Positions 38,067 to 62,302 of a DNA stretch of 64,000 bases are shown piece by piece. Source of the stretch: Lysobacter sp. S4-A87 (lineage in GTDB: Bacteria; Pseudomonadota; Gammaproteobacteria; Xanthomonadales; Xanthomonadaceae); contig NZ_CP093341.1 in assembly GCF_022637455.1 (NCBI RefSeq), positions 434,001 through 498,000 on the forward strand, written 5' to 3'. The first letter of the stretch is position 1; the number at the start of each line of letters is the position of its first letter. The position numbers were made by a program, and so were the translations under genes. The notes beneath the pieces were generated by a model. That model was given only the letters and a program-made list of their open reading frames with translations, was not told the origin of the DNA and ran no database searches.

Positions 38067-38424
38067 CTGGCCCGTAGCGCCGATATGGAAGCCACTAGAA
38101 ACGGCCGAGCGGTGGCACGCCGCACTCGGCGGGCATCCCCCTTCGACGCGATGACGCGAACTGCCAGCTCGATGTTCTCGTAGCTTCGGCCTCGCCAATC
38201 GGAACCTGACGGCCGGCACTTCGGGCCCCGCCGATAGCGAGCCAATACTCGTCAAGGGTGAATCGAACATGCATGACGGAGGTCCGTGCACAGCCGGAGC
38301 GGGGCAGGCGCGTCAGGTGGCGTTACACCCCACATAAGCGATCGACCGTCCGTTGACCTGAGTGGCGTGATCGGAATCTCGGCAGGAATCGACACCTTCG
38401 TCCAAGAGGCGCGAGAGGCCGATC
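38067..38424. other. Intergenic region before the histidine kinase
   Basis: About 360 bp without a recognisable gene. CGACACCTTCGT at 38390-38401 matches exactly the core of the shared motif seen upstream of the HlyD and SRPBCC genes (58266-58291, 56063-56086), but here it is only 24 bp before the kinase start. Nothing else was identified. Confidence 0.4.
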
Positions 38425-44820: not shown

Positions 44821-44910
44821 GGCGCATTACCTCTTCGGACATGGTGGACAGTGACGGCCGATGGCCAGTCGCTGACCCGAGGATAGATAGCTGCGTCTGG
44901 AAAGGAAGCA

Positions 44911-45002
44911 GACAAAGGTGTTGGTACCTCCGTCGATTCCCGAGGGAGCGGCGGCGCATTGCACCAAGGTATCGATCAACACCTTTGTGCAATTCCCGTG
45001 CG
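44911..45002. promoter_or_regulatory. Shared motif sites: 30-bp palindrome plus a single copy
   Basis: 44961-44990 is an imperfect palindrome: the left arm GCACCAAGGTATCGA and the right arm read in reverse (GCACAAAGGTGTTGA) agree at 12 of 15 positions. On the plus strand it reads CAACACCTTTGTGCAATTCC, ending 56 bp before the DUF6130 start. On the minus strand it reads CGATACCTTGGTGCAATGCG toward the crotonase. Another minus-strand copy (CAACACCTTTGTC) is at 44911-44923. The same sequence recurs at 48531-48613, 56063-56086, 58266-58291 and 60755-60824. Confidence 0.65.
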
Positions 45003-45058
45003 ACCGTCGCGCTGGTCAGATGGCGTCCATCTTCCAGGCAGATCGCAGGAACCGGGAC

Positions 45059-45484
45059 ATGAACAGGTACGCCAGAATGCTCGCCGCATCTGCCATTGCC
45101 ACGATGATTGCGCCCGACGCATTTTCGCAAACGGCTCGGTCGCTAGTCGTTCCTTATGAGAACGAGCCTCCACCGAAGCTGACCATCGAACCGCCCCTGC
45201 CCGGGCCGCTCGCCAAAGGCGTTGCGTTCATCCCGTACCGCGTCGAGAACCTGCGCATCCTTCCGGTCGGCGGAGCGTCGGCGCGTCAACTGTCGCCACG
45301 CGTTGGGCACATCCACGTAACCGTCGACGACCTGCCTTGGCAATGGGCGGATTACGGTCAGAGCGACACCATCATCCTGGTCAATCTGCCTCGCGGGGAG
45401 CACAAGGTCCTGATCGAGGCGGTAGATCCGGAAGGGGGCCTGCTCACCTCGCAGAGCATCAAATTCACAGCACCCGGCAAGTGA
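45059..45484 (+). CDS. DUF6130-like exported protein
   Basis: The 141-residue protein starts with a Sec signal (MLAASAIATMIAPDAFSQ). The mature part contains PRVGHIHVTVDDLPWQWADY and IILVNLPRGEHKVLIEAVDP, a beta-sandwich-like pattern matching small exported DUF6130 proteins. Role unknown. ATG 45059 has AGGAACCGGGAC in front. It lies 22 bp before the cytochrome P460 gene and 56 bp after a copy of the shared regulatory motif, so it probably opens an operon reaching the MBL gene. Confidence 0.7.
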   Translation: MNRYARMLAASAIATMIAPDAFSQTARSLVVPYENEPPPKLTIEPPLPGPLAKGVAFIPYRVENLRILPVGGASARQLSPRVGHIHVTVDDLPWQWADYGQSDTIILVNLPRGEHKVLIEAVDPEGGLLTSQSIKFTAPGK

Positions 45485-45506
45485 CCAATCGTTCGGAGGA
45501 CACCCC

Positions 45507-46037
45507 ATGAAGCGCACGAGCAAGGCATTGATCGCGGGCGCCACCGCGCTGATCGTTGTAGTCGGAACCGCATTCTCCGCGCAGGACAAATACACGCTGA
45601 AATCCGCGGGTGGCATCGCCTTCGCTGATTTTCGCGGCTACGAAGACTGGGCGGTCGTGTCGTCGGCCCGGACCGACGAGGTGCTCAAAGTGATCGTCGC
45701 CAACCCGGCCATGATCAAGGCCTACAAGGCGGGCGTGCCGAAGAACGGCCAGTCATTCCCGGAAGGTTCGAAGATCGTGAAACTGCAGTGGAAGCCGAAG
45801 AAGAGCAGCGAGGCGCCATTCGCCGTGGACGTGCCCGATGTGTTCACGCAGGCGTTTGTGATGGAGAAGGACAGCAAGCGGTTCCCGAAGACCGGCGGAT
45901 GGGGTTATGCGCTCTTCAACTACGACGCGCCATCCGACAAGTTTGTGGTCGATCCGAGTCCCGTCGACTGCGGGCAAGCGTGCCACGTGAAAGTGAAAAC
46001 CAAGGACTACATCTTCCACCCCTACCAGAAACGTTGA
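45507..46037 (+). CDS. Cytochrome P460-family protein
   Basis: The 176-residue exported protein has signal ALIAGATALIVVVGTAFSA. The P460-like barrel is marked by FADFRGYEDWAVVSSARTDE, FPEGSKIVKLQWKPKKS, GGWGYALFNYD and the C-terminal heme-binding segment CGQACHVKVKTKDYIFHPY. The heme motif has three residues between cysteines (CxxxCH), a spacing that occurs in part of this family, and not the usual CxxCH. P460 proteins oxidise hydroxylamine or detoxify NO-type species; the activity here is open. Good ribosome site (GGAGG) before ATG 45507. Confidence 0.83.
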   Translation: MKRTSKALIAGATALIVVVGTAFSAQDKYTLKSAGGIAFADFRGYEDWAVVSSARTDEVLKVIVANPAMIKAYKAGVPKNGQSFPEGSKIVKLQWKPKKSSEAPFAVDVPDVFTQAFVMEKDSKRFPKTGGWGYALFNYDAPSDKFVVDPSPVDCGQACHVKVKTKDYIFHPYQKR

Positions 46038-46110
46038 AGCGCGCGGCCCGGCCGCACGCACTTCGACGTCCATCGAATTGCACCATAGACCCCACCAGGA
46101 GTCCGTCGCC

Positions 46111-47235
46111 ATGCCCAGCATCCGTTCCACTCGAGTCGTTTCTCTGATCGCCGTTGCCGCTCTGGCGGCCTGCACACGCCAGGAGCCCGCGCCGCTGACG
46201 GCCGAGGCCGCCACACCTGCGCAGGGCGCCACTACGTCCACGTCCACGTCCGCCTCCGCCTCCGATTCGGCACCGGGCACGCCCGCTCGGGTTCCGTACG
46301 CAGAGATGCCGCAACTCGCCCCCATTGGCGTTCGGATCGACAAGCACCTGGACGTGCCCGAGTCCGCCCGGGGGCCCGCCATCGATCCGGCCAAGGGATA
46401 TCGCTTGCAGGACCTCGGCGACGGCCTGTACATGGTCACCGACAACGCATACCAGTCGATGTTCCTGGTCTACGACAAAGGGGTGGTGGTCATCGATACT
46501 CCGCCCACGTTCTCGTCGCATATTCCCGCCGCCATCGCGGAGGTGACGAAGAATCCCGTCACGCACGTCGTCTACAGCCACTCCCACAAGGATCACATCG
46601 GCGGCACGCGGGCGCTGGGCGGCAAGCCGGTCATCATTGCGCAGGAAGAAACCCTGCGGCTGCTCAAACGCGACAACGACCCCGACCGCCCGCTGCCTAC
46701 GGTAACGTTCAAGGATGCCTACACGCTGGAAGTAGGCGGGAAGAAGCTGGACCTGTCTTACCATGGCAACGGCCACGAGCCGGGCAACATCTTCATCAGC
46801 GCACCGAAGCAGAAGGTACTGATGGTCGTGGACGTGGTGTTCCCGGGCTGGATGCCGTGGCGTCGTTTTGCCGTTGCCCAGGACGTCTTCGGCTCCATCG
46901 CTCAGGTCGACAAGATCAACTCGATGGAATGGGACACCCTCGTCGGCGGTCACGTCGCGCGAACCGGCACCCATGCCGATGTGCAACAGCAGGCCGAGTT
47001 CTACAAGGATCTGCGTGACGCGGCGGGCAAGGCGTTGTCGACGACCAAGCCGGGCGAGGGTGTCAACCCCAAGGACATGGACAACCCGTGGGCGATTTTC
47101 GACGACTACATCGATCGCGTCGTCATCCAGTGCGTCAACTCTGTCACGCCGAAGTGGCAGCCGCGGCTGGCTGGCTACGACGTCTACATCTGGGACCAGT
47201 GCTATGCGATGGAGCAGGCACTGCGCATCGACTAG
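46111..47235 (+). CDS. Metallo-beta-lactamase-fold lipoprotein
   Basis: The 374-residue protein has a lipobox (SLIAVAALAACTRQ, Cys about 19) and an Ala/Thr/Ser-rich linker of about 40 residues. The MBL-fold domain shows VYSHSHKDHIGG (HxHxDH), a later GNGHEPGNIFI and GGHVARTGTHAD, giving the dinuclear zinc ligands. Members hydrolyse lactams, lactones or thioesters such as quorum signals. It starts with a strong CAGGAG site and closes the DUF6130-P460-MBL operon, followed by a T-run hairpin. Confidence 0.87.
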   Translation: MPSIRSTRVVSLIAVAALAACTRQEPAPLTAEAATPAQGATTSTSTSASASDSAPGTPARVPYAEMPQLAPIGVRIDKHLDVPESARGPAIDPAKGYRLQDLGDGLYMVTDNAYQSMFLVYDKGVVVIDTPPTFSSHIPAAIAEVTKNPVTHVVYSHSHKDHIGGTRALGGKPVIIAQEETLRLLKRDNDPDRPLPTVTFKDAYTLEVGGKKLDLSYHGNGHEPGNIFISAPKQKVLMVVDVVFPGWMPWRRFAVAQDVFGSIAQVDKINSMEWDTLVGGHVARTGTHADVQQQAEFYKDLRDAAGKALSTTKPGEGVNPKDMDNPWAIFDDYIDRVVIQCVNSVTPKWQPRLAGYDVYIWDQCYAMEQALRID

Positions 47236-47284
47236 GTTGCGCCGTCGCTGCACTGGCCATTCAGTTCACGCCCCGCGTGGCGCT

Positions 47285-47331
47285 GCCGGCGCCCCCCCTG
47301 CTCGCCGGCGACTGCCCCGTGGGGCGTTTTT
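47285..47331 (+). terminator. Rho-independent-type terminator after the MBL gene
   Basis: Tandem GC-rich inverted repeats (GCCGGC at 47285-47290 with GCCGGC at 47304-47309; then TGCCCCGTGGGGCG, 47313-47326) are followed by TTTTT (47327-47331). It lies about 80 bp after the MBL stop and before the convergent response-regulator gene. Confidence 0.65.
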
Positions 47332-47351
47332 GACCACAGCGGGTGGCTGGA

Positions 47352-47972
47352 TCAGCGCGTGCTCGATTCCAGCGCCGCAGCCATCTTCACAAGGTCGGGC
47401 ACCGATCTGGCCCGCATCTTCTGCATGACCCGGCCGCGATGTGCCTTGACAGTGATCTCGCTGATGCCAAGGTTTCCCCCGATCTGCTTGTTGAGCAGGC
47501 CCGATACCACCAGCGCCATGACCTCGCGCTCGCGGCGTGTCAGCGAGGCATGGGCCTCTCGCAAGGATCGCACTCGCGTCGCATCATCCAGCGCGGCGTC
47601 GCTGCGTGCGATCGCTCCGCGAATGCTCTCCAGCAGGAGCTCATCGTCGACTGGTTTTGTGAGAAACTCGATCGCGCCCGCGCGCATCGCGCGCACTGTC
47701 ATCGGGATGTCGCCGTAGCCGGACATGAAGATGATCGGCATGTCGGCGCGGTCTGTCGCGATCAGTGCCTGCAGGTCGAGTCCGTTGATGTCGGGTAGCG
47801 TCACATCAAGGACCAAACAGGTCGGGCCTGCTTCCCGCGGATGCGCAAGGAACTCTCCAGCGCTGGCGAAGGTCCTGGTGGTCCAGCCGGCGAACCGCAC
47901 CAGCGATTCCAACGACTCCCTGACCGATATGTCGTCGTCCACGATGAAAACGATGGGCGCGGCGTGGTTCAC
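47352..47972 (-). CDS. FixJ-type response regulator (REC + LuxR HTH)
   Basis: About 206 residues. The receiver domain has VFIVDDDISVRESLESLV (acidic pocket), CLVLDVTLPDINGLDLQ (phospho-acceptor Asp near 55) and FLTKPVDDELLL (Lys). The output is a LuxR/GerE HTH: LTRREREVMALVVSGLLNKQ and IGGNLGISEITVKAHRGRVM. GTG 47972 is preferred since GAGG precedes it; GTG 47981 is also possible. It lies downstream of the receiver-only gene on the same strand, opposite the giant sensor kinase. It is the best local candidate to bind the shared motif in this island. Confidence 0.92.
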   Translation of the reverse strand: MNHAAPIVFIVDDDISVRESLESLVRFAGWTTRTFASAGEFLAHPREAGPTCLVLDVTLPDINGLDLQALIATDRADMPIIFMSGYGDIPMTVRAMRAGAIEFLTKPVDDELLLESIRGAIARSDAALDDATRVRSLREAHASLTRREREVMALVVSGLLNKQIGGNLGISEITVKAHRGRVMQKMRARSVPDLVKMAAALESSTR

Positions 47973-48051
47973 GGATGCCACCTCGTCGGAAGTAGGTCAT
48001 GCAAAGGGTGAATAATCCTTTCGGAGCGGCGATGCAAGCGTTTTGCGGCAT

Positions 48052-48423
48052 TCAGCTTTTGGCGATGGCCGAGGCGATCGCGTCCAGCAGCGTTTCGCTC
48101 TCGAATGGCTTGAACAGGAAGTCTTCGGCTCCCCGCGCGATCAGGTCACGGCGAACCTCGGCGTCCACGTGGGCGCTCATGAAGATCAGCGGAAGCGTAT
48201 TCCGCCGGCGCGACAGCTCCTCCTGCAGCGCCGGCCCGGACATAATGGGCATGTAGACATCCACGACCAGGCAGGCCGCGAGGTCGGCCGCGCCGGAGGC
48301 GAGGAAATCGATCGCGGACGCGAAAACCTGGGCGTCGTAGCCGCCTGTCTTCAGCAGGTCCGGGAGCGATTCACGTACCGACTCGTCGTCGTCCACGATC
48401 GCCACCAGTCGGCGCGACCTCAC
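48052..48423 (-). CDS. Receiver-only response regulator
   Basis: The 123-residue single REC domain has LVAIVDDDESVRESLPDLL, CLVVDVYMPIMSGPALQ (phospho-Asp near 57), LPLIFMSAH and FLFKPFESETLL. There is no output domain, so it may act as a phosphate sink or relay between the giant kinase and the FixJ-type protein. GTG 48423 begins the frame; its ribosome site is weak. A minus-strand copy of the shared motif (CGACACCTAAGTATCATG) lies about 110 bp upstream, suggesting control by the same system. Confidence 0.9.
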   Translation of the reverse strand: MRSRRLVAIVDDDESVRESLPDLLKTGGYDAQVFASAIDFLASGAADLAACLVVDVYMPIMSGPALQEELSRRRNTLPLIFMSAHVDAEVRRDLIARGAEDFLFKPFESETLLDAIASAIAKS

Positions 48424-48530
48424 GGTAAGCCATCCATGCTAAGCGAACGGGTGACGCCGCTCGGACTGTTGGTCATGTCGGATCCTCCGAGATGAGCTCC
48501 TGGCCCTAGGATGCACCCGCGACCGAGCGG

Positions 48531-48613
48531 TTTACATGATACTTAGGTGTCGATTGGCCCGGCTCCGCAGGGGGGGGCGTCCGGGACCGATACCTTGGTG
48601 CAATCGCCTGCAC
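48531..48613. promoter_or_regulatory. Divergent copies of the shared motif
   Basis: The plus-strand copy at 48588-48613 reads CGATACCTTGGTGCAATCGC and then CTGCAC, ending 48 bp before the OsmC start; it matches the site at 60771-60796 at 23 of 26 positions. The minus-strand copy, about 48534-48551, reads CGACACCTAAGTATCATG toward the response-regulator gene and resembles the HlyD site (CGACACCTTCGTATCATG). Confidence 0.65.
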
Positions 48614-48661
48614 CCCCGGCCTGTAGTTTCATCGGACTTCCCTCGCGGGCCGGAGAGTGAC

Positions 48662-49084
48662 ATGAACGACACCGAGCGCAAGCTCCTCTACACGGGCAAG
48701 ACCCACACCGTCGGCGGCCGTGACGGCGGCAAGGCGAAGAGCACCGATGGCGCGCTCGAAGTCGGGTTTTCGACGCCGGGAACGCACGGCACCGGTACCA
48801 ACCCCGAGCAACTGCTGGCCGCCGGCTGGTCGGCCTGCTTCATCGGCGCGATGGGCATCGCCGCGCGTCGGATGCGCGTGACGCTCCCGCCTGACACTGC
48901 TATCGACGCCGAAGTGGACCTGCGGCAGGGCAGCGAGGGCTACTCGCTGGCTGCCCGCCTCAATATCTCGTTGCCCGGAGTCGACCGGGAAACCGCGCAG
49001 GCGCTGGTCGACGCCGGTCACGACACGTGCCCGTATTCGAAGGCGCTCAAGACCAGCATCGAGGTAGCCATCAACCTAGTCTGA
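48662..49084 (+). CDS. OsmC/Ohr-family peroxiredoxin
   Basis: The 140-residue protein has GTGTNPEQLLAAGWSACFIG with the peroxidatic Cys near 60 and DAGHDTCPYSKALKTSIEVA with the resolving Cys near 125. The start LLYTGKTHTVGGRDGGKAKS is typical of the Ohr group. Such proteins reduce organic hydroperoxides. ATG 48662 follows GAGAGTGAC. It is downstream of a copy of the shared motif and upstream of the giant kinase (156-bp gap), and could reach it by read-through. Confidence 0.92.
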   Translation: MNDTERKLLYTGKTHTVGGRDGGKAKSTDGALEVGFSTPGTHGTGTNPEQLLAAGWSACFIGAMGIAARRMRVTLPPDTAIDAEVDLRQGSEGYSLAARLNISLPGVDRETAQALVDAGHDTCPYSKALKTSIEVAINLV

Positions 49085-49240
49085 CCCTGGCCCGCGGGCT
49101 GAATGCGCTGTCCATGGCTGGACATTGCCTTGGCGGGGCGGCGAGAACCACGCGATTGCCGCATCCGGAATCACCGGAGTATCGTCGAGCATCCGACACG
49201 CACTTGCGTGATCCCTCGCAGTTTCTGGCCGGAGGCCTCG

Positions 49241-52200
49241 ATGGTGGAGACGTCCGCGCTGGAGACGGAGGGTGGCCTGGCCTGCCACGAGTTGCTCTGG
49301 GACGACGGCGAGCGCGGTTTCTGCCGCGTCCTTCACGCGCACGGCGATGGCACTACGCGGGAGTACATCGCAGTGGTGCCCCTGGCGGATCGGCCACATC
49401 CGTCCGTGGAGCTGGGTCTCCGGCGCGAGTATGCCCTCAGGGACCATCTCGACAGCGAGTGGGCGCTGCGGCCCAGCGTACTGGTGCGCAATCGGGGGCA
49501 CACGGCGCTGCTCCTGGATTATCAGCCGGTGGAGCCGATTGAACACCTCCTCACCGGGCAACCGATGCAGCCGCGGCAGCTCCTCACACTTGCGATATCG
49601 GTGACCAAGGCCCTGGCACACCTGCACGAACGCGGTGTCGTGCATCGTGACATCAAGCCTGCCAACGTCATGGTGGCCCGGAACGGGGAGCACGTGTTCC
49701 TGTCCGGTTTCGGTATCGCTTCGCGCCTGCCACGGGAGCGACAGACTCCCGATCCGCCCGAACTGATCGCCGGCACGCTGGCGTACATGGCGCCGGAGCA
49801 GACCGGACGCATGAACCGTTCGGTGGACTCTCGCAGCGATCTGTACGCGCTGGGTGTTCTTCTCTATCGAATGGCGACCGGCGTCTTGCCTTTCACTGCT
49901 TCGGACCCGATGGAGTGGGTGCATAGCCACATCGCGCGAACTCCGATTCCTCCGGTGCAGCGGGTTCCAGAGCTTCCGCCGCCGGTGTCCGACATCATCG
50001 TGCGCCTGCTCGCGAAGACGCCGGAGGAGCGCTACCAGACGGCGGCGGGCGTCACCCACGACCTGCAGCGCTGCCTCGCGGCGCACGACGCCGGCGCCGC
50101 TGCCGCAACCTTCGCCTTGGGCCAGCAGGATCATCCCGATCGCCTGGCGATCCCCGAGAAGCTGTACGGCCGCGAAGCGGAGACCAACGCACTGATCGCC
50201 GCGTTCAACGACGTCGTGGAAACGGGTGTGCCGACGCTGGTGCTGGTCGCCGGCTACTCGGGCATCGGAAAATCGTCAGTGGTGCACGAACTGCACAAGG
50301 TGCTCGTTCCCCCGCGCGGCCTGTTCGCCTCCGGCAAATTCGACCAGTACAAGGCCGACATCCCCTACGCCACGTTTGCGCAGGCCTTCCAGCAACTGGT
50401 CAGACCACTGCTGGGCAAGCCCGAGGACGAACTAGCGCGGTGGCGGAACGCATTCGCGCAAGCGCTGGGACCCAATGGCGTCCTGTTGCTGAACCTGGTG
50501 CCGGAACTTCGGCTGATCATCGGCGATCAGCCTCCGGTGGCGGAGCTTCCCGCACAGGAAGGGCAGCGTCGCTTCCAGGTTACCGTTCGCCGCTTCATTT
50601 CCGTCTTCGCGCGGCCGGAGCATCCACTCGCGCTGTTCCTGGATGACCTGCAATGGCTCGACTCGGCCACGCTGGACCTGCTCGGCGACCTCCTCACCGC
50701 GAGTGACGTCCGCCATGTGTTGCTGATCGGCGCGTACCGCGATAATGAGGTGACCGCGCTGCATCCGCTCGTCCGCAAGCTGGAGGAGCTCGGCCAGGCT
50801 GGCGCGAACCTGCGAACGCTGAAGCTGCCGCCGTTGAAGGCTGACGACCTGAAACAGCTGGTCGCCGAATCGCTGCACGAGGAGCCTGCGAGCGTCATGC
50901 CGCTCGCCGAACTCATCCATGGCAAGACGGGTGGCAATCCCTTCTTCGCGATCCAATTCCTGCAGGCGCTGGCGGAGGAGGGGATGCTCGCCTTCGACCG
51001 CGCAGCGGGGCAATGGTCGTGGGATCGCCAACGCACGCTCGCCAAAGGCTATAGCGACAACATCGTCGATCTGATGGTCCGCAAGCTCTCGCGGCTTGAG
51101 CCGCGAACACTTGCCGCGCTGCAGACCTTCGCCTGCCTGGGCAACGCCAGTGACGCGCGCACATTGAGCGTGGTGTGCGAAACCTCGCCGGAACGGCTCG
51201 ACGCCGACCTGTGGGAAGCGCTCAGCCAGGAACTGGTCCTCAAGCACGATGACATCTATCGCTTCGCGCACGACCGCGTGCAGGAAGCCGCGTACTCACA
51301 GGTCCCGCTGGACTCGCGCGCGGCCGCACATCTGCGCATAGCCCGGCTGCTTTCCGCGCACACGGCACTGCAGGGGCAGGACGAAGCGATCTTCGACATC
51401 GTGAACCAGTTCAATCGCGCCGGCGATCTCCTCGAATCGGCGGAAGAGTGCCGTCATGTCGCCGGACTCAACCTAAAGGCAGCGCGGCGCGCTCGCGCTT
51501 CATCTGCCTATGCATCGGCACTGAGCTACCTGCGCGCCGGTCGATTGCTCGTGGAGGACGAGGGATGGGCGGGCCACTACGAGTTGGTCTTCGCGCTCGA
51601 GTCGCTCATGGCCGAATGCGAACTGATGACCGCCGAACTGGACGCGGCGGAGAACCGACTGGCCAGTCTGGCCGATCAGGCGCGTACCCGCCATGAGTTC
51701 GCGGGGGTAACGCGCCTTCGGCTGACGCTCTATACCGCGCGTTCGCGCGGCGATCGCTGCGTGGAGGTCTTCCTGGATTACCTGCGCCGAAACGGCACCG
51801 ATTGGCCGTCGCGACCCACCCGCGAACAGGTCATGCAGGAGTACGACCTTATCTGGACGCAGCTGGCTCAACGCCAGATCGAGGACCTGATCGACCTGCC
51901 GCTCGCCAGCGACCCGGACGTTCTGGACATGTTGGACGTGTTCACTGAGATCGTGACACCGGCGTTCTTCTTCGACGAGAACCTGTCCTCACTCGTCCTG
52001 TGCCGAATGGTCAATCTGAGTCTCGAATATGGGCACTGCGACGGGTCTTGCTTCGGCTATGTTTTCTTCGCCACGTTTGCCGGACCGCGTTTTGGCAACT
52101 ACCGGGACGGTTACCGTTTCGGGCGGCTCGGTTACGACCTCGTGGAGAAGCGGGGGCTGACGCGCTATCAGGCGCGCACGTACATCGTCTTCGGCAACAT

Positions 52201-54781: not shown

Positions 54782-54810
54782 TCCGATGACCGCGGCTATC
54801 GATTAGCCCT

Positions 54811-55434
54811 TCAGTCGGGTAGCGCGCCCAGCAGCTCGGCGGTGCTGACGATCGCATGGGCATAGGTGGGACCGTTGAGTTCGTGCGCGGCATGCATCAG
54901 CTCTTGCGAGTAGGCGGCTGTGGCGTCGCGAACCAGCGTTACGTGGTAGCCCAGCTCCATGGCGAAGCGCCCGGTCGACTCGATGCACGAATTGGCAAGC
55001 AGCCCGACGATTACAACATGGCTGATGCCATGCTGCTTCAGTCGCATGTCGAGATCGGTGTTGGCAAAGCCGCTTTGGCCCCAATGCTGTTGGACGACCA
55101 CGTCGCCGTCCTTCGGCACGAAGTCAGGATGGAACTCGCCACCCCAGGTACCCTTCGCAAAGCTATGCCGCTTCATGATTGCTTGCTGGGTCGGGTTGAT
55201 ATGCTTCCATCCTTCGTAGTCGCCAGCCTCCCACTGATGGTGCGGGACGATAAAGATACGGATGGCGGCAGCGCGGGCTGCGGCGTGGATTGAACGGAGA
55301 TTGTCCAACAGGCCGACTGCCTCGGCCACGTCCTTGAGGCGTGGCCAGGCGATACCACCGTCGGACAGGAAATCGTTGTAGGGATCCACGAGCAGCAGCG
55401 CCGTCGTGTCGCTTTGATAGTGACCTTCGGACAT
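54811..55434 (-). CDS. Isochorismatase-family cysteine hydrolase
   Basis: The 207-residue protein has TALLLVDPYNDFLSDGG (catalytic Asp), HWGQSGFANTDLDMRLKQHG (usual Lys region) and VIVGLLANSCIESTGRFAME with the nucleophilic Cys, then LGYHVTLVRDATAAYSQE. Family members hydrolyse amides or vinyl ethers such as nicotinamide, carbamoyl sarcosine and isochorismate; the substrate is unknown. It lies 35 bp downstream of the SRPBCC coding region on the same strand and probably shares its promoter with the shared motif at 56063. Confidence 0.9.
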   Translation of the reverse strand: MSEGHYQSDTTALLLVDPYNDFLSDGGIAWPRLKDVAEAVGLLDNLRSIHAAARAAAIRIFIVPHHQWEAGDYEGWKHINPTQQAIMKRHSFAKGTWGGEFHPDFVPKDGDVVVQQHWGQSGFANTDLDMRLKQHGISHVVIVGLLANSCIESTGRFAMELGYHVTLVRDATAAYSQELMHAAHELNGPTYAHAIVSTAELLGALPD

Positions 55435-55469
55435 GATTCACTCCACGGTCGAAGAGGGCGTCGCGGCGA

Positions 55470-56006
55470 TCAGCCCTGGCGAGCTGCACGCAACGCGTAG
55501 CGCTCGATGCTGGCGGCGAAGAACGGCGTTTCCTGTTTGTTGTGCGCGGTACTGATGGGCTTTCTCTGGTCCCGGAACAACTCGAACGGAATACCCTGGC
55601 GCGCGAGGTAATCCAGGAATCCTTCTGTCGCCCGGCTGCGCACGTGGTTGGTGAACGTGCAGCGCCCCGCATCGAGCGGCTCCACGCTAAGTTCCCACAT
55701 CACCAGGATGGTTGTCCGGCCCGACGGCGTGAAGAGGTCCGACACCGAGTCGAGCACCAGGCGGTGCGGCTCGGCAATCTGCTCTACGTAGTGCTGCACC
55801 ATCGGGACGCCGCCGAGCACCTCGACGTTGATCGACATCCGGCGTCCATCCTCGGACGTCGTCGCGCCGGCGGCAAAATGCGCTGGCGAGCAGCCCTGGT
55901 ATTCCTTGTCGGGGAGACTGAAGCACCAGGAGGGGATGTCGATCTTCTCGATGGGTGCGTTGATGATAGCTGTGAAGCTCGAGTCCACGATGACATGCTC
56001 TTCCAT
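55470..56006 (-). CDS. SRPBCC-like protein (separate start inside the read-through frame)
   Basis: Beginning at ATG 56004-56006, preceded by AAGGTGATCCAG, 178 residues read MEEHVIVDSSFTAIINAPIE, then CFSLPDKEYQGCSPAHFAAG, VEVLGGVPMVQHYVEQIAEP and CTFTNHVRSRATEGFLDYLA. The pattern suggests an SRPBCC/START-like ligand-binding or polyketide-cyclase-like fold; recognition is moderate. The shared regulatory motif ends 56 bp upstream of this ATG, the same spacing as at the DUF6130 gene, so this start is probably used. Confidence 0.6.
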   Translation of the reverse strand: MEEHVIVDSSFTAIINAPIEKIDIPSWCFSLPDKEYQGCSPAHFAAGATTSEDGRRMSINVEVLGGVPMVQHYVEQIAEPHRLVLDSVSDLFTPSGRTTILVMWELSVEPLDAGRCTFTNHVRSRATEGFLDYLARQGIPFELFRDQRKPISTAHNKQETPFFAASIERYALRAARQG

Positions 56007-57155
56007 CTGGATCACCTTGCGGGGAAGTTGGGGGCAACTCGACGCTACGCCCGCGCCCTGATCTTGCAAATCGTACGAAGGTGTCGATTGCGGCCCATTT
56101 GCTACAAATTCCTTGGCCTTATCGAGACGCGTCGCCGCGAACGAGTTCAGGGCGGCCTGTGTGAGATAGATGCATAGCAGCATCGTGGTCACCGCGATCG
56201 CAACCGAGACGAAACGGTAGAGCGAGATGCCGTAAAGGTCGGCACTGGGAACCAGTTGCCCGATGAGCACCGCGACAGCCGTGGCAGCGCTAAGTCCAAC
56301 CGCAGGCCCTGCATCCTCGCGGACGTGCCACGTTGCGAACCACGTGACCCCGGCTGCGTACAGTGTGAGCAGGAGCGGTACGTGTGAGGCATGGGTGTAC
56401 AGCACGACCTGCAGCGTCAGTGCGTACAGTGATCCAAGCAGCGTCCCAATCACCCGCGTGCACGCGGCCCAGCGTCCGCCCGATAGCGTCATGGGGAACA
56501 ACACCAGCACACTCGCCGCCTGCGCCGACAGTGAATCCCGCAGGTCCAGCAACTGGAAGGCCACGTAGGACACGGTGGCGCAGATCGCACCGAGCAGCAT
56601 CTGGTGGTGGACGATGGCGGGGGGCTTCGCCCGGGGCTCAGGCGTTGACGAACGCCTCTCAGGCAACACGGCATGGGTGAAACCGGAGACCACGACAGCC
56701 AACACGGTTGCAATGAACTGCGCGGTGTAGAGGTCGTCCGGTGCGACCTGCGGATAGCTCGCCAAGTGCGCAAGCACCGAGGTGGACAGTATCGCCAATG
56801 CGTGGAACAGGACCCACCGTTCTAGAGCCATCATGCGGAAGCAGTGCGCTGCGAAGGCAAAGAACGCAAGAACGGCCAGCAATGGGGCGACGTCCGACAG
56901 GATGATCAGCACTTGTGCGACGAGGATGCTAACCGCGCTGCTGCCGACGAACTGCAGCACGACCCCAAGATTAAGCGGTCGCACCAAACCGACCAGGACG
57001 ATCGGATAGAAGGCGAAGAAGGCGCCGTACGGCCATCCCATCAGTTTTGCCGTCGCCAGACCCAACACGCTGGCGATTGCGATGCGCCGCGCGTGACGCC
57101 AGCTGTCCTCGGTGAGCGCCGTGCGTGAGGGTAGGTGGGCTGCGTCAATAGACAT
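55470..57155 (-). CDS. DUF2955/FUSC-type exporter reading through into an SRPBCC-like domain
   Basis: One frame of 561 residues. Residues 1-about 350 are a DUF2955/aromatic-acid-exporter-like membrane protein (two helix bundles: ASVLGLATAKLMGWPYGAFF, LLAVLAFFAFAAHCFRMMAL, ATVSYVAFQLLDLRDSLSAQ, LLLTLYAAGVTWFATWHV). Residues 384-561 are a soluble SRPBCC-like domain. The join (about 352-383) reads like translated intergenic DNA and contains a copy of the shared promoter motif and a ribosome site. So the exporter's own stop was probably lost, or a natural fusion exists. ATG 57155 overlaps the HlyD stop by 11 bp; HlyD-DUF2955 pairs form efflux systems. Confidence 0.75.
   Translation of the reverse strand: MSIDAAHLPSRTALTEDSWRHARRIAIASVLGLATAKLMGWPYGAFFAFYPIVLVGLVRPLNLGVVLQFVGSSAVSILVAQVLIILSDVAPLLAVLAFFAFAAHCFRMMALERWVLFHALAILSTSVLAHLASYPQVAPDDLYTAQFIATVLAVVVSGFTHAVLPERRSSTPEPRAKPPAIVHHQMLLGAICATVSYVAFQLLDLRDSLSAQAASVLVLFPMTLSGGRWAACTRVIGTLLGSLYALTLQVVLYTHASHVPLLLTLYAAGVTWFATWHVREDAGPAVGLSAATAVAVLIGQLVPSADLYGISLYRFVSVAIAVTTMLLCIYLTQAALNSFAATRLDKAKEFVANGPQSTPSYDLQDQGAGVASSCPQLPRKVIQMEEHVIVDSSFTAIINAPIEKIDIPSWCFSLPDKEYQGCSPAHFAAGATTSEDGRRMSINVEVLGGVPMVQHYVEQIAEPHRLVLDSVSDLFTPSGRTTILVMWELSVEPLDAGRCTFTNHVRSRATEGFLDYLARQGIPFELFRDQRKPISTAHNKQETPFFAASIERYALRAARQG
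56063..56086 (-). promoter_or_regulatory. Shared motif before the SRPBCC start
   Basis: On the minus strand CGACACCTTCGTACGATTTG begins at 56086 and ends 56 bp before the ATG at 56006. Its first 14 bases are identical to the site in front of HlyD (CGACACCTTCGTAT) except the last. Its presence inside a nominally coding stretch argues that this stretch is, or was, intergenic. Confidence 0.6.
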
Positions 57156-58206
57156 AGTGGAGCAGGCTGATCACGCGGATCTGCAAGTGGCCGAACCAGC
57201 CCGACACGCCATGCTCGCGTGGATGCAACTGCACGGTCGCACGCGCTCCGGTCATGAGTGGCCTCGGCGGTGCTTCGAGCAGGCGTAGATTGACGCGCAC
57301 GCGCTCGGCGTCGCGGACCCAACGATCGCTCTGCTCCGGTGCCGCGAGCCTGCCGTCGGGGTCGATCTGACCGTTGGCAACGCCCGCGTCCAGAGAGGCA
57401 ACTTCCGCCTGGAAGAGGCGGCCGGGCAGGGCGTCGAAGGCGACCTCCGCGCGCGTCCCCCGCTCGACGTGGAGCAACGCCTTCTCGCGGAAGTCGGCAA
57501 ACAGACTGGGGGCCGTGCTGACCAGGGCCAGCTTTGGCTCCCCTGCCTGTGCGTAGGCACCGGCCTCCAGACGCAGATTGCTGACGATGCCCGCCTCCAG
57601 GGCGGTCACCTGCGAGCGATCCAGGTCGAGGCGGGCGCGGTCGAGTGCGTTACGTGCGCGCCGCAACCGCAGGCTGTGATCTCCCGGTTCGCCACGTTGC
57701 ACCCGCGCCGCGGCGAGGCTTGCGAGCGATGCATGCACTTGCGCAGCGGCGACGTCGCGCCGCGCGCGTGCAGCGTCCAGGGCGGCGTGTGAAACATACT
57801 GCTGACGTTCCAGTTCATCGAAGCGACGCAGATCGCGGTCAGCGTCCTGCAGTTGCGTTTCCGCCCGTGCCAGTTCCGCTATCGCGGCGGCGATGACGGC
57901 ATCGAACTGGGCGTTGTCCTGGGTTGCCTGTTCAACTTCGAGCTGGGCCTGTTCGACCAGCACGAGGTAGTGGTCCGGATCGACGCGGAACAACAGGTCG
58001 CCCCGTTGCACGCGCTGGTTGTTGACGACGCATACGTCGATGACGCGGCCACTGACCTCCGGAGCAACGCGGGTTACCCGATAGGTCAGCCGCGCGTCCG
58101 GCGACACCGGCATGTGGGTGTCCGCCGCCACGTAGTAGGCAAAGAATGCCGCCGACAGTGCCAGCGAGGTCAACATCCACGCACGGAAGCGGGCATCGGG
58201 ACTCAT
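57145..58206 (-). CDS. HlyD/EmrA-type membrane fusion protein
   Basis: The 353-residue protein has one N-terminal transmembrane segment (AWMLTSLALSAAFFAYYVAA), a biotinyl-lipoyl-like half (VTRVAPEVSGRVIDVCVVNN and VQRGDLLFRVDPDHYLVLVE), a coiled-coil hairpin (about 80-190) and the returning barrel (VTALEAGIVSNLRLEAGAYA). It couples inner-membrane exporters to the outer membrane. It overlaps the DUF2955 gene, so both form an efflux unit. The shared motif lies 59 bp upstream of ATG 58206. Confidence 0.9.
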   Translation of the reverse strand: MSPDARFRAWMLTSLALSAAFFAYYVAADTHMPVSPDARLTYRVTRVAPEVSGRVIDVCVVNNQRVQRGDLLFRVDPDHYLVLVEQAQLEVEQATQDNAQFDAVIAAAIAELARAETQLQDADRDLRRFDELERQQYVSHAALDAARARRDVAAAQVHASLASLAAARVQRGEPGDHSLRLRRARNALDRARLDLDRSQVTALEAGIVSNLRLEAGAYAQAGEPKLALVSTAPSLFADFREKALLHVERGTRAEVAFDALPGRLFQAEVASLDAGVANGQIDPDGRLAAPEQSDRWVRDAERVRVNLRLLEAPPRPLMTGARATVQLHPREHGVSGWFGHLQIRVISLLHYVY

Positions 58207-58265
58207 GAGGACGGTCTACTGGCGCCGGGCTTCGGGAGCAACGACAACGCTACCCGCATCCATTG

Positions 58266-58291
58266 GCCACAACCATGATACGAAGGTGTCG
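58266..58291 (-). promoter_or_regulatory. Shared motif before HlyD
   Basis: The minus strand reads CGACACCTTCGTATCATGG from 58291, ending 59 bp before the HlyD start. A weaker plus-strand look-alike (CGACACCGCACGTACAG, 58333-58349) lies 45 bp before the YdeP-type gene. Confidence 0.6.
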
Positions 58292-58394
58292 GCGCGTCCG
58301 GCCCATCGCGGGAGTACCATCGTCGTGCCGCTCGACACCGCACGTACAGGGCTGGTGCGCAGTGCTCCACCATCGTGCAGACACGAGGTGCGCC

Positions 58395-60668
58395 ATGGCC
58401 GAGAACGACCCCTCCGGAATCCGTCGCTACCGCAATCCCGCCGGTGGCTGGGGCGCGTTGCGGGCCACCGCACGGGCGATCGGGGAGCAAATGGAGGCCG
58501 GCGATGCAACGGCCGCGTTGTTGCGCACCAACCAGCCCGACGGATTCGATTGCCCCGGATGTGCGTGGCCCGACAAACATCACCGCTCGACGTTCCAGTT
58601 CTGCGAGAACGGCGCCAAGGCGGTGACCTGGGAGGCGACCAAGAAACGGGTGACGGCGGCGTTCTTCGCGCAGCACACCGTCGAGTCGCTGCTTCAATGG
58701 AGTGACCACGCGCTGGAGGACGAGGGACGTCTTACCGAACCGATGGTCTATAACGCTGAGCGGGACCAGTACGAGCCCATAGACTGGCAGCAGGCTTTCG
58801 CCCGTATTGGCGAGCTCCTGCGCGAGCTGGATCCGCAAGCCGTCGAGTTCTACACATCCGGCCGGACCTCAAATGAGGCCGCGTTCCTGTACCAGATATT
58901 CGCGCGCGAGTACGGCAGCAACAACTTCCCCGACTGCTCGAACATGTGCCATGAGGCAACCAGCGTTGGCTTGCCGATGTCCATCGGCATCGGCAAGGGC
59001 ACGGTGTCACTGGATGACTTCGACCACTGCCAGCTGATCATTGCGATGGGCCACAACCCCGGTACCAACCACCCGAGGATGATGGGAACGCTGCACGAGG
59101 TCGCTCGCCGGGGCGTACCGATCATCGTCATCAATCCGCTGCGCGAGCGAGCGCTTGAACGCTTCGCCGATCCGCAGGACCCGCTGGAAATGGCGACGCT
59201 GGGCGCCACTGCCATCGCATCGAGTTACCTGCAGCCCAGAGTGGGCGGCGATGCTGCCGTGCTCAAGGGAATCATGAAGGCGCTGCTGGAAATGGACGCA
59301 ACGGACGACGTGCTTGATCGCGCGTTCATCGCGGCGCACACCAATGGCTTCGAGGCGTTGGCGACCGGACTTCGTGCAACGCGCTGGCCAGACATCGAGA
59401 CGGAGTCGGGGCTGTCCGAGCCGCAGATGCGCCGCGTCGCGCAAGCCTACGCGGCGTCAGACGCGACCATCGTCACTTACGGCATGGGCCTGACGCAGCA
59501 TCGCACCGGGACGCAGAACGTGCAGCAGGTCGCCAACCTCTTGCTCCTGCGTGGCAATTTTGGCAAGCCCGGTGCCGGGATCTGCCCGTTGCGCGGCCAC
59601 TCCAACGTGCAGGGCGACCGCACCGTTGGCATCACCGAGAAGCCATCGGCGGCAATGCTCAAGCGCATCGAGGCGCGATTCGGTTTCCGCCCTCCGGCCG
59701 AACATGGGCACGACGCGGTTTCGGCGATGCGGGCCATCGTCGACGGCCGCTCGAAAGCCCTGATCTGCATGGGCGGCAATCTTGCAGTGGCTCTGCCGGA
59801 TCCAGAGGCGTGTCTACCGGCGATGCGCCGGCTGCCGCTGGCGGTGCACGTGGCGACCAAGCTCAACCGCACCCATCTGCTGGTGGGACGTCATGCCTTC
59901 CTGCTCCCGTGCCTGGGCCGCACCGAGCGCGATGACCAGGCCGCCGGACCGCAGGCGGTGACGGTGGAAGATTCGATGTCGATGGTGCATGCCTCGCGCG
60001 GACGGCTATCGCCGGCGTCCGCCGCACTGCGTTCTGAGCCTGCCATCGTCGCCGGCATCGCCGCGGCGACTTTGCCCGCAAGCGCGGTACCTTGGAGCGA
60101 CCTGGTCGCCGACTACGATCGCATTCGCGAGGCCATCGAGGCGGTGATCCCGGGTTTCGACGATTACAACCAGCGTATTCGCAAACCCGGTGGCTTCCGC
60201 ATGCCGCTACCGCCTACACAGCGCGTATGGAATACGCCGTCCGGTAAGGCTGAGTTCCTGCCGTTCGCCGGCCTGCGCGAGGACTTGCCTGGCCGCGATG
60301 CCTCCGTGCTGACGCTGACGACGGTTCGCAGCCACGATCAATACAACACGACGATCTACGGTCTGGACGACCGCTACCGGGGCGTGTTCGGCCGCCGCGA
60401 CGTCGTGTTCATGAACGAGGACGACATGGCCTCGCGCGGCATCTCGCACGGTGACCCCATAGTCATTGAGACGGTGCTCGGGGTAAGGCGCGAGCGGACA
60501 ATGCGCGATGTGATTGCGGTGGCTTATGGCATTGCACCGGGTTCGGTCGCCACGTACTACCCCGAAGGCAACTGCCTGGTACCGCTTGACCACGTCGACC
60601 CGGAAAGCGGCACGCCAAGCTACAAGTCGATCCCTGTCCGGATCTGGCGCGAGCCGAAAGCGGACTGA
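58395..60668 (+). CDS. FdhF/YdeP-family molybdopterin oxidoreductase
   Basis: The 757-residue protein of the bis-MGD oxidoreductase superfamily has DGFDCPGCAWPDK (Cys pair about 52-55, YdeP-type and not a full 4Fe-4S set), FYTSGRTSNEAAFLYQIFAR, NNFPDCSNMCHEATSVGL, NPGTNHPRMMGTLHEVARRG, GKPGAGICPLRGHSNVQGDR and a C-terminal MGD-binding barrel (LTTVRSHDQYNTTIYGLDDR). No signal peptide, so it is cytoplasmic. E. coli YdeP is linked to acid resistance; the substrate is unknown. ATG 58395 starts the conserved part. It diverges from the HlyD exporter operon. Confidence 0.92.
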   Translation: MAENDPSGIRRYRNPAGGWGALRATARAIGEQMEAGDATAALLRTNQPDGFDCPGCAWPDKHHRSTFQFCENGAKAVTWEATKKRVTAAFFAQHTVESLLQWSDHALEDEGRLTEPMVYNAERDQYEPIDWQQAFARIGELLRELDPQAVEFYTSGRTSNEAAFLYQIFAREYGSNNFPDCSNMCHEATSVGLPMSIGIGKGTVSLDDFDHCQLIIAMGHNPGTNHPRMMGTLHEVARRGVPIIVINPLRERALERFADPQDPLEMATLGATAIASSYLQPRVGGDAAVLKGIMKALLEMDATDDVLDRAFIAAHTNGFEALATGLRATRWPDIETESGLSEPQMRRVAQAYAASDATIVTYGMGLTQHRTGTQNVQQVANLLLLRGNFGKPGAGICPLRGHSNVQGDRTVGITEKPSAAMLKRIEARFGFRPPAEHGHDAVSAMRAIVDGRSKALICMGGNLAVALPDPEACLPAMRRLPLAVHVATKLNRTHLLVGRHAFLLPCLGRTERDDQAAGPQAVTVEDSMSMVHASRGRLSPASAALRSEPAIVAGIAAATLPASAVPWSDLVADYDRIREAIEAVIPGFDDYNQRIRKPGGFRMPLPPTQRVWNTPSGKAEFLPFAGLREDLPGRDASVLTLTTVRSHDQYNTTIYGLDDRYRGVFGRRDVVFMNEDDMASRGISHGDPIVIETVLGVRRERTMRDVIAVAYGIAPGSVATYYPEGNCLVPLDHVDPESGTPSYKSIPVRIWREPKAD

Positions 60669-60754
60669 TCCGCCAGTCTTCTCCCGATTGATCCGTGCGA
60701 ACCGAAACGGCCCGAGCCGAGGTTCCGTGCGCACGACTGCGCGGCTCCTGGTGC

Positions 60755-60824
60755 ATACAAAGGTATCGAACGACACCTTGGTGTAATCGACTGCACACGC
60801 GTGCCTTGGTGTGATGGCCCACGC
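60755..60824 (+). promoter_or_regulatory. Shared motif: palindrome plus a second degenerate copy
   Basis: 60755-60784 is a palindrome whose core is AAGGTATCGAACGACACCTT. The plus-strand copy (60771-60796) reads CGACACCTTGGTGTAATCGA then CTGCAC, nearly identical to 48588-48613. A degenerate repeat (GTGCCTTGGTGTGATGGCCC, 60801-60820) ends about 72 bp before the epoxide hydrolase start. Confidence 0.65.
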
Positions 60825-60895: not shown

Positions 60896-62302
60896 ATGAT
60901 CGCCTGGTGCTCCACGCATGCCTCGCGCCGCGGCGCGATGTCAGTCCCGCGGTACTGCTCTTCGCTGACGACCGTGCGCGCTTCGTTGATCCGGCTTTGT
61001 GCGCTCGCCATTCCGCTGGCCGGGCTGCTCGCATCGCAGGTCGTGTCCGCCACTCCACACCGAGAGTCCGCCATGAACGTCTCCAGTGTCGCCTCCACCA
61101 CCTCCGCCAATGCAACGGTGGACCAGGATACTTCGATACGCCCGTTCAAGTACCAGGCCACGCAGGCAGAACTGGACGACCTGCGCCGTCGCGTCGAAGC
61201 GACGAAATGGCCCGAGAAGGAAACGGTCGACGACCAGTCGCAGGGCGTGCAGCTGGCTACCCTCAAGCAACTCGCCGGGTACTGGGCGAAGGACTACGAC
61301 TGGCGCCGGTTCGAAGCCAAGCTCAATGCGACGCCACAGTTCGTGACCACCATCGACGGTGTCGACATCCATTTCATCCACGTTCGTTCCAAACACGCCA
61401 ACGCGTTGCCGCTGATCGTCACGCACGGTTGGCCCGGATCGATCGTGGAGCAGATGAAGATCATCGGCCCGCTCACCGATCCAACCGCGCATGGCGGCAC
61501 GGCCGCAGATGCGTTCGATGTCGTCATTCCGTCGCTGCCAGGCTATGGATTCTCAGGAAAGCCCACGCAAACCGGCTGGGACCCGATACGCATCGCACGT
61601 GCCTGGGTCGTGTTGATGAAGCGACTGGGCTACAACCGGTTCGTCGCGCAGGGGGGTGACTGGGGCAACGCCGTTACCGAGCAGATGGCGCTGCTGAAAG
61701 CACCGGAACTGGTCGGGATCCACACCAATATGCCGGCCACGGTGCCGGCCGACATCGATGTCGCGCTGCAGGCTCGACAGCCTGCACCCGCGAATCTCTC
61801 GGTCGACGAGAAGCGCGCCTACGACCAGCTCGACTTCTTCTACCGCCACGGCTTGGGCTACGCGCAGGAAATGGCGGGACGCCCGCAGACGCTGTACGCC
61901 ATCGCCGACTCACCTGTGGGGCTTGCGGCGTGGATGCTCGACCACGACGCGCTCAGCTATGCGCTGATCGCGCGCGTCTTCGATGGCCAGCGCGAGGGGC
62001 TGTCGCGCGATGACGTCCTCGACAACATCACGCTGTACTGGCTCACCAACACCGCGGTGTCGTCCGCGCGGCTGTACTGGGAAAGCAAGCTCGCGTTCTT
62101 CGCCCCCAAGGGCATCGACATCCCGGTCGGCGTGAGCGCGTTCCCGGACGAGCTCTATCAAGCGCCCAAGAGCTGGGCCGAGCGCGCGTACCCGAAGCTC
62201 ATCCACTACAACCGGCTCGACAAGGGCGGCCACTTCGCCGCGTGGGAGCAACCAGACGTGTTCGTGGACGAGCTGCGCGCGACGTTCAAACCTCTGCGTT
62301 GA
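60896..62302 (+). CDS. Exported epoxide hydrolase (EHN-type)
   Basis: The 468-residue protein has a signal-like segment (about 31-52, LCALAIPLAGLLASQVVSA) followed by a Ser/Thr-rich stretch. An epoxide-hydrolase N-terminal domain starts near 78 (IRPFKYQATQAELDDLRRRV). The alpha/beta core follows: VTHGWPGSIVEQMKII, FVAQGGDWGNAVTEQM (Asp nucleophile about 252), HYNRLDKGGHFAAWEQP (His about 444). EHN enzymes open epoxides to diols. Export is unusual for them. ATG 60896 has AAGGAATCGAC in front; ATG 60938 is an alternative. It is followed by the exported crotonase and porin. Confidence 0.88.
   Translation: MIAWCSTHASRRGAMSVPRYCSSLTTVRASLIRLCALAIPLAGLLASQVVSATPHRESAMNVSSVASTTSANATVDQDTSIRPFKYQATQAELDDLRRRVEATKWPEKETVDDQSQGVQLATLKQLAGYWAKDYDWRRFEAKLNATPQFVTTIDGVDIHFIHVRSKHANALPLIVTHGWPGSIVEQMKIIGPLTDPTAHGGTAADAFDVVIPSLPGYGFSGKPTQTGWDPIRIARAWVVLMKRLGYNRFVAQGGDWGNAVTEQMALLKAPELVGIHTNMPATVPADIDVALQARQPAPANLSVDEKRAYDQLDFFYRHGLGYAQEMAGRPQTLYAIADSPVGLAAWMLDHDALSYALIARVFDGQREGLSRDDVLDNITLYWLTNTAVSSARLYWESKLAFFAPKGIDIPVGVSAFPDELYQAPKSWAERAYPKLIHYNRLDKGGHFAAWEQPDVFVDELRATFKPLR

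Follow-up and report, generated by a model that had tools for sequence, protein, structure and literature searches.

A promoter-linked dyad motif in a Lysobacter gene island is probably the operator of a StyR/FixJ-type response regulator

Introduction

A stretch of 64,000 nucleotides from Lysobacter sp. S4-A87 (contig NZ_CP093341.1, positions 434,001 to 498,000; called the window, with positions counted from its first letter) carries copies of a short motif upstream of genes on both strands. Which protein reads this motif, and what would it do there? The initial annotation took the copies as the mark of a regulon and assigned them to a FixJ-type regulator encoded at 47352, fed by a giant kinase encoded at 49241. 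We computed motif enrichment, clustering, dyad structure, spacing, co-segregation with the recognition helix of the regulator, and conservation, in the window, in the whole 3.89-Mb genome (G000) and in other bacteria. The sequences indicate that the motif is very probably the operator of the StyR/FixJ-type regulator at 47352-47981, which would bind a dyad, activate in a class-II-like manner and control an island that includes its own gene.

Results

Searching the window for AYACCTTNGTNNNAT with at most one mismatch gave 11 matches where 0.47 were expected, two of which (at 5669 and 36744) lie outside the proposed regulon. The next stretch of the genome, a 19.9-kb locus (L016), gave 3 matches against 0.09 expected. 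Exact matches to CGAYACCTTNGT are found in the window at 38390+, 44963-, 48588+, 56075-, 58280-, 60757- and 60771+, and the copy at 44977 has one mismatch. When two mismatches are allowed, CGAYACCTTNGT has 58 matches in the window, compared with a mean of 21.9 and a maximum of 35 in shuffled sequences, so many of the 58 are background. The six copies named in the initial annotation are all present where it had placed them, and the agreement of the OsmC and epoxide-hydrolase copies at 23 of 26 positions was borne out.

The genome-wide distribution is far from random. A 17-mer, CGAYACCTTNGTGCAAT, has 15 matches in the whole genome at up to two mismatches, against 1 in the reversed control; 10 of the 15 lie at 470,744-506,468, and all seven matches with at most one mismatch fall within 28 kb (478,958-506,468). 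With a broader pattern, the interval 472-507 kb holds every exact match (4 of 4) and 9 of the 12 found at up to one mismatch, and the two-mismatch class (18 matches, 2 of them in this interval) resembles background, the control totalling 19. The recognisable sites are thus gathered in a single island, and few if any lie beyond it.

A matrix was built from 163 distinct sites present in 818 kb of sequence, which comprised the window, the stretch adjoining it and 42 loci that carry related FixJ-type genes. The aligned sites have the consensus CG-AYAC-CWTN-GTNY-AAT-N-G, and each copy is an imperfect dyad, AYAC-N4-GTNY. At a threshold of 14 bits the matrix finds 177 sites in the 818 kb against 4 in reversed sequence; it was trained on sites of a motif widened from that of the initial annotation, in the same loci in which it was then counted. 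A separate held-out test, which excluded L148 (a repeat of L082), gave 52 sites against 1 reversed in 300 kb. The held-out loci without the KAHR recognition helix described below contributed 5 sites against 0 reversed, all from loci with a KIHRG helix; L161 was counted in this group despite its KAHRA helix and has 0 sites, and L160 belongs to neither helix group. Loci L209-L214 had been chosen through motif hits and were left out of the enrichment. The shuffled, reversed and held-out controls together rule out a chance motif.

The box becomes fully palindromic in two loci, L101 (7906, 9430 and 12009) and L108 (6272 and 6920). These are Planctomycetaceae and Solibacter loci, with the palindromic forms AGACC..GGTCT and ATAC-N4-GTAT. 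The palindromes of about 30 bp at 44961-44990 and 60755-60784, to which the initial annotation had drawn attention, resolve into two complete back-to-back sites each; we rejected the 30-bp palindrome as the basic unit because single copies are already dyads. Such pairs recur often. Divergent pairs with centres 17-18 bp apart number 29 (28 without the record duplicated as L082/L148), other pair spacings occur at most 3 times, and there is a single convergent pair within 130 bp.

Following the dyad, positions 18-34 of the alignment hold at most 0.19 bits each, and GG at 35-36 and a hexamer at 37-42 then stand out (0.51 bits at the last base). At offset 37, 52 of the 163 sites match TATAAT at four or more of six bases; no other offset between 18 and 46 has more than 9 such sites. 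The held-out sites behave in the same way, with a -10-like hexamer at offset 37 in 8 of 52 and at other offsets (28-49) in at most 2. The 17 bases at positions 20-36 would fit a normal spacer between -35 and -10, with T-N-G-A at 14-17 as a -35-like element; the frequency of G at position 16 is 0.97 where the -10 is good and 0.75 where it is poor. If transcription starts about 7 bases past the hexamer, the dyad centre would lie near -43. Of the 59 distinct sites whose -10 is good, 35 are accompanied by an inverted partner of at least 4 bits 17-18 bp upstream. Same-strand partners at 17 bp with a score of at least 4 were seen at 11 of the 59, and we attribute these to the near-palindromic core.

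The fixed 37-base offset and the conserved T-N-G-A at the -35 position would also be expected if the motif were a promoter element of an alternative sigma factor (a -35 of the extracytoplasmic-function (ECF) kind) and the conserved -10 belonged to that factor. The -10, however, resembles TATAAT preceded by TGG, and the inverted partners 17-18 bp upstream often have no -10-like hexamer. The core, moreover, is a dyad, which in L101 and L108 is perfect, and the presence of sites tracks the recognition helix of the FixJ-type protein (see below). We consider the sigma-factor explanation highly improbable.

The initial annotation had also noted a constant spacing to start codons. Measured from motif position 0 (pos0), the distance is 72 bases for OsmC, 80 for DUF6130, 78 for SRPBCC and 83 for HlyD. 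A histidine-kinase gene missing from that annotation's list, its ATG taken to be the one at 38473, falls in the same range at 81. Three other genes exceed these values, with 127 bases at the receiver, 101 and 152 at the crotonase and 123 at the epoxide hydrolase (counted to the chosen start), so the constancy is limited to the former five genes (72-83).

An operator so placed could serve activation or repression. StyR does both, activating from a site near -40 and repressing from others (PMC2442086), and the window regulator might likewise repress, or activate or repress according to the position of the site. The dyad of the window, however, stands upstream of the -10, not over it, at the place of the activating site of StyR, and the further upstream dyad at 35 of the 59 promoters with a good -10 would favour cooperative activation. 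Repression thus appears unlikely, and we retain activation as the preferred reading.

The candidate reader of the motif has a Response_reg domain (2.5e-24) followed by GerE (4.1e-21), which places it in the NarL/FixJ class. We compared 80 loci that encode homologs of this protein, the top 80 among the matches listed, which were divided by relatedness (42 near loci, and 38 far loci with more distant FixJ paralogs) and by recognition helix (38 with KAHR, 42 with other helices). At least one site of 14 bits or more is present in 37 of the 38 KAHR loci and in 11 of the 42 others, and at least two in 34 of 38 versus 5 of 42; the counts are uncorrected for phylogeny and all 80 loci were selected by their FixJ genes, which weakens the comparison. 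Overall similarity does not set the outcome: L088 (51% identity, KAHRG) has 3 sites and L101 (47%, KAHRG) has 4, versus none in L086 and L087 (51-52%, KFHRG).

This dependence on helix residues bears on a further explanation, in which the FixJ gene would be a passenger and the motif would be recognised by some other DNA-binding protein of the island. LysR-type genes do occur in the region, among them presumably the one at 39646. However, a search with the LysR protein of L016, which did not cover the LysR-like gene at 39646, found a homolog in one near locus out of 42, and among loci of comparable overall identity the motif comes and goes with the residues of the FixJ helix. A passenger role for the FixJ gene is therefore very unlikely.

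We then turned to conservation. In a genome of the same genus (G181) the regulator is 85% identical, the cluster is retained, and sites precede DUF6130, the crotonase, the receiver, OsmC, SRPBCC, HlyD and the epoxide hydrolase. In five alignments of upstream regions, 59-70% identical overall, the dyads and some of the -10 elements appear by eye as blocks of near identity. At the place equivalent to window 44904..44923, G181 has a weaker copy (L145:16978-, 13.6 bits).

Across the family, 16 of 297 genomes have a homolog of the regulator at E <= 1e-50, six of them with KAHR (G000, G181, G256, G074, G146 and G021) and the other ten with KIHRG, so the system is patchy. Exact matches to GAYACCTTNGTGCAAT were found in G000, G181, G146 and G267 (two). 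Among 398 genomes drawn across the phylum, in which helices were read for L180-L208, five, the own genome included, have an ortholog of at least 62% identity, and all five carry KAHR. The exact 19-mer is present in four of these five genomes versus 6 of the 393 others. In the three ortholog genomes other than our own it lies 3-7 kb from the regulator gene, and the fifth has two near-matches beside the gene (L215). The six other genomes with an exact 19-mer showed no FixJ match in the approximately 20 kb read around the hit. Plasmids also carry copies of the system with sites, namely S. meliloti pSymA (L162), S. fredii pSF45436e (L163) and R. leguminosarum pR132502 (L164), all in rhizobia that are amenable to genetics.

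As a separate observation, loci of KIHRG-helix paralogs (L150, L151, L153, L154 and L156-L159) contain a different box, CCACACC-WTSG-TATGA (at least 12 bits); in these family genomes the distance between it and the FixJ-like start is mostly about 1.1 kb. Its presence suggests a second helix-operator pair.

Several observations weigh against assigning the motif to this regulator. The crotonase and receiver sites of the window have poor -10 matches. L161 (G021), with a KAHRA helix and 47% identity, has no site of 12 bits or more, and L083, a 4-kb contig with KAHRG, has no site. Related paralogs seem to recognise similar boxes, since the 38 far loci still hold 14 sites (3 in reversed sequence). 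Because GAYACCTTNGTGCAAT with at most one mismatch hits 45 of the 297 family genomes, mostly with a single match each, an isolated near-match carries little weight; three KAHR genomes (G256, G074 and G021) have no such match, although G256 and G074 nevertheless have matrix sites. G267 has its exact matches without a regulator at E <= 1e-50. An isolated strong matrix match lies in its locus L219 (near 10015; 27.4 bits), and the 10.6 kb examined around one of the two exact matches yielded no homolog of an island protein; we leave G267 as an unexplained exception, probably due to chance. Finally, G404, G452 and G626, which have exact 19-mers, carry only paralogs of 45-50% identity, elsewhere in the genome.

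On balance, the genomic clustering, the retention of sites upstream of orthologs in G181 and the recurrence of sites around related regulators in other phyla make a regulon very likely, in agreement with the initial annotation. Its choice of the FixJ-type protein as the reader is strongly supported by helix co-segregation, by the scan of 398 genomes and by the sites that precede regulatory genes.

The phosphodonor is less clear. The histidine-kinase (HK) part of the giant kinase matches kinases in near loci at a median of 59% (n=33) and those in far loci at 45% (n=35), and the gene follows the site-led OsmC gene, on the same strand. However, the Ser/Thr-kinase and AAA parts are found in 7 of 42 near loci only, some of which are short contigs, and two more kinase genes lie nearby, so that the role of donor given to the giant kinase by the initial annotation is plausible only. 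The cognate kinase may instead be the multi-PAS/GAF kinase at 507-511 kb of the genome, whose gene lies just past the last sites found, or the short kinase at 38473. An HK homolog is found within 1.5 kb upstream of the FixJ gene, on the same strand, in 18 of 42 near loci; in three annotated plasmid loci (S. fredii, R. leguminosarum and Caballeronia) the local partner, adjoining the receiver and FixJ genes, is a PAS kinase. The gene at 38473, for its part, has a site with a -10-like element. By eye, the HK part of the PAS kinase at 507393-511034 is similar to that of the giant kinase; the near-locus kinases are closer to the giant kinase (median 59%) than to the PAS kinase (median 49%). We give the giant kinase a slightly better than even chance of being the main phosphodonor, and one of the other two kinases a lesser but appreciable chance.

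To see which genes the sites lead, we called 198 site-led open reading frames (ORFs) from all sources by a simple start-codon rule, which makes some of them spurious, and named each by its best match among the proteins of the window and L016. Among them are receiver or FixJ genes (43 ORFs, from 23 of 42 near loci, 6 of 38 far loci and the window itself), epoxide hydrolases (16, from the window and 13 near loci but from no far locus), kinases (11, with 9 near loci), crotonases (7, with 5 near loci), SDR and alpha/beta-hydrolase proteins (5 each), and OsmC and P460 (3 each). A site-led regulatory gene, with a best match to the receiver, the FixJ-type protein or the HK part of a kinase, occurs in 28 of 42 near versus 6 of 38 far loci. 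Irrespective of sites, homologs of the window epoxide hydrolase are present in 15 of 42 near loci and those of the L016 alpha/beta-hydrolase in 13 of 42, versus 0 of 38 far loci for both. In L163 and L164, sites lie 75-87 bases 5' of three epoxide hydrolases, a VOC protein, a nitronate monooxygenase and two PAS-kinase genes; at five other genes the distance is 143-314 bases.

Given these gene families, the substrates may be reactive or oxidised organic molecules. That the regulon detoxifies such compounds is a tentative proposal, to which we give just under an even chance. No paper on this regulon was found in the literature searched, nor any on DUF6130.

The features of the island are collected in Table 1. 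Around the SRPBCC gene, a FUSC/DUF2955 membrane-protein gene runs in frame and without a stop into it (55470-57155, minus strand; a 561-amino-acid ORF); the two genes are separate in G181, and the SRPBCC promoter site of the window lies inside the joint ORF. Beside the left end of the main cluster is an ORF (42547-43569, plus strand) that may encode an IS110-type transposase. GC content is 0.58-0.61 at 30-40 kb of the window and 0.63-0.65 from 44 kb (measured over 30-64 kb), values that we did not use regarding transfer.

Table 1. Operator copies, regulators, kinases and neighbouring genes (window positions unless stated; pos0, motif position 0)
Feature	Position	Strand	Remarks
Operator copy, 5' of second histidine-kinase gene	38390..38409	+	pos0 38392; -10-like TCCAAT 38429-38434
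Operator copy, 5' of crotonase gene	44904..44923	-	pos0 44921
Operator copy, inverted partner of DUF6130 site, also 5' of crotonase	44955..44974	-	pos0 44972
Operator copy, DUF6130-P460 promoter	44977..44996	+	pos0 44979; -10-like TCAGAT 45016-45021
Operator copy, 5' of receiver-only/FixJ gene pair	48533..48552	-	pos0 48550; weak -10
Operator copy, OsmC promoter	48588..48607	+	pos0 48590; -10-like TTTCAT 48627-48632
Operator copy, SRPBCC promoter	56067..56086	-	pos0 56084; -10-like TAGCGT 56042-56047
Operator copy, HlyD promoter	58272..58291	-	pos0 58289; -10-like TAGCGT 58247-58252
Upstream inverted partner of epoxide-hydrolase site	60749..60768	-	pos0 60766; centres 18 bp apart; partner score 7.3
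Operator copy, epoxide-hydrolase promoter	60771..60790	+	pos0 60773; -10-like TGTGAT 60810-60815
FixJ/StyR-type response regulator, candidate motif reader	47352..47981	-	Receiver and LuxR-type helix-turn-helix (Pfam); helix TVKAHRG
Receiver-only response regulator, upstream neighbour of FixJ gene	48052..48423	-	Pfam
Giant kinase, candidate phosphodonor	49241..54781	+	Pkinase, AAA_16, GAF, PAS, HisKA, HATPase (Pfam); ORF open from 49103, start of the initial annotation kept
HisKA-HATPase kinase without recognised sensor domain, alternative donor	38473..39216	+	ORF open from 38425; ATG 38473 assumed
Large multi-PAS/GAF histidine kinase	G000:C1 507393-511034 (L016:10393-14034)	-	
Crotonase-family protein	43990..44820	-	
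DUF6130 protein	45059..45484	+	Pfam
Cytochrome P460-family protein	45507..46037	+	Pfam
Metallo-beta-lactamase-fold hydrolase	46111..47235	+	Pfam
OsmC-like protein	48662..49084	+	Pfam
Isochorismatase-family hydrolase	54811..55434	-	Pfam
SRPBCC-type protein	55470..56006	-	Name from the initial annotation; no such Pfam match (scanned as end of P0001)
HlyD-type membrane-fusion protein	57145..58206	-	
Molybdopterin oxidoreductase	58395..60668	+	
Epoxide hydrolase with EHN domain	60896..62302	+	
Crotonase-family protein	62358..63305	+	N-terminal signal-like stretch, by eye

Discussion

We propose that a dimer of the activated regulator binds the AYAC-N4-GTNY dyad, probably in a phosphorylation-dependent way. 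At the promoter, the dyad, centred near -43 and adjoining the -35 region, would allow the bound regulator to direct RNA polymerase to a -10 element whose distance is fixed, as in class-II-like activation, and at many promoters a second, inverted dimer site would lie 17-18 bp upstream. The operon of the regulator would be among its own targets, giving positive feedback; further targets would be spread over an island of about 35 kb that encodes hydrolases, redox and repair enzymes and an efflux adaptor.

How does this system compare with known ones? The closest solved structure to the window regulator is StyR (1yio, E 4e-53; identity 0.44), and with StyR, TodT, TmoT and TutB it shares the order of receiver and helix-turn-helix domains of the NarL/FixJ class and a dyad with an AC-N4-GT core. 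StyS and TodS, the partner kinases, have two kinase modules with a receiver and PAS domains. The giant kinase, in contrast, is arranged as Pkinase-AAA-GAF-PAS-HisKA-HATPase, and its partnership with the regulator is itself putative. One report gives the common box of StyR, TodT, TutB and TmoT as ATAAAC-N4-GTTTAT and the contact residues as K175, V176 and H179 (PMC5874301). The window box differs from it in its outer letters (CGAYAC/GTNYAAT); no copy of ATAAAC-N4-GTTTAT with up to two mismatches was found in the window or L016, and only the AC-N4-GT geometry is in common. At the three contact positions the window protein has K, A and G (K-A-H-R-G). One lysine kept and two contacts changed would suit a box in which AC-N4-GT is conserved and the letters around it have changed.

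FixJ has the same domain order (5xso, E 2.5e-35) but an identity of 0.33 and the recognition helix TIEVYRA. TdiR, the anaerobic toluene regulator, is related to StyR, and for it too a palindrome has been proposed upstream of the -35; that proposed box, GGTGTTCGCACC, is unlike the window motif. The protein is thus of the NarL/FixJ class and StyR-like in operator geometry, and differs from the StyR subgroup in contact residues, box and partner-kinase layout. No aromatic-catabolism operon or ring-cleavage enzyme was recognised among the proteins scanned, the targets being hydrolases and redox and repair enzymes. The initial annotation knew of no described regulator with this site; we too found no exact match in the literature searched, but the StyR/TodT boxes are a described relative.

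Similar regulators, sites and detoxification-type genes recur together across distantly related bacteria. By record titles, several of them metagenome-assembled, the clade is found in Proteobacteria, Acidobacteria, Verrucomicrobia and Gemmatimonadetes. More speculatively, a portable autoregulated unit (kinase, receiver, StyR-like regulator and promoter cassette) may move between phyla and plasmids and capture genes that detoxify electrophiles or oxidants by placement of the cassette, that is, of a 36-bp inverted double operator with a -10 at a fixed distance.

For this clade of response regulators, the analysis yields a precise operator and promoter grammar and with it a means of listing candidate targets in other genomes, and natural variation that links recognition-helix residues with operator letters. 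It would also tie the poorly understood DUF6130, cytochrome P460 and EHN epoxide hydrolases, together with an unusual fusion of Ser/Thr kinase, AAA and histidine kinase, into one circuit.

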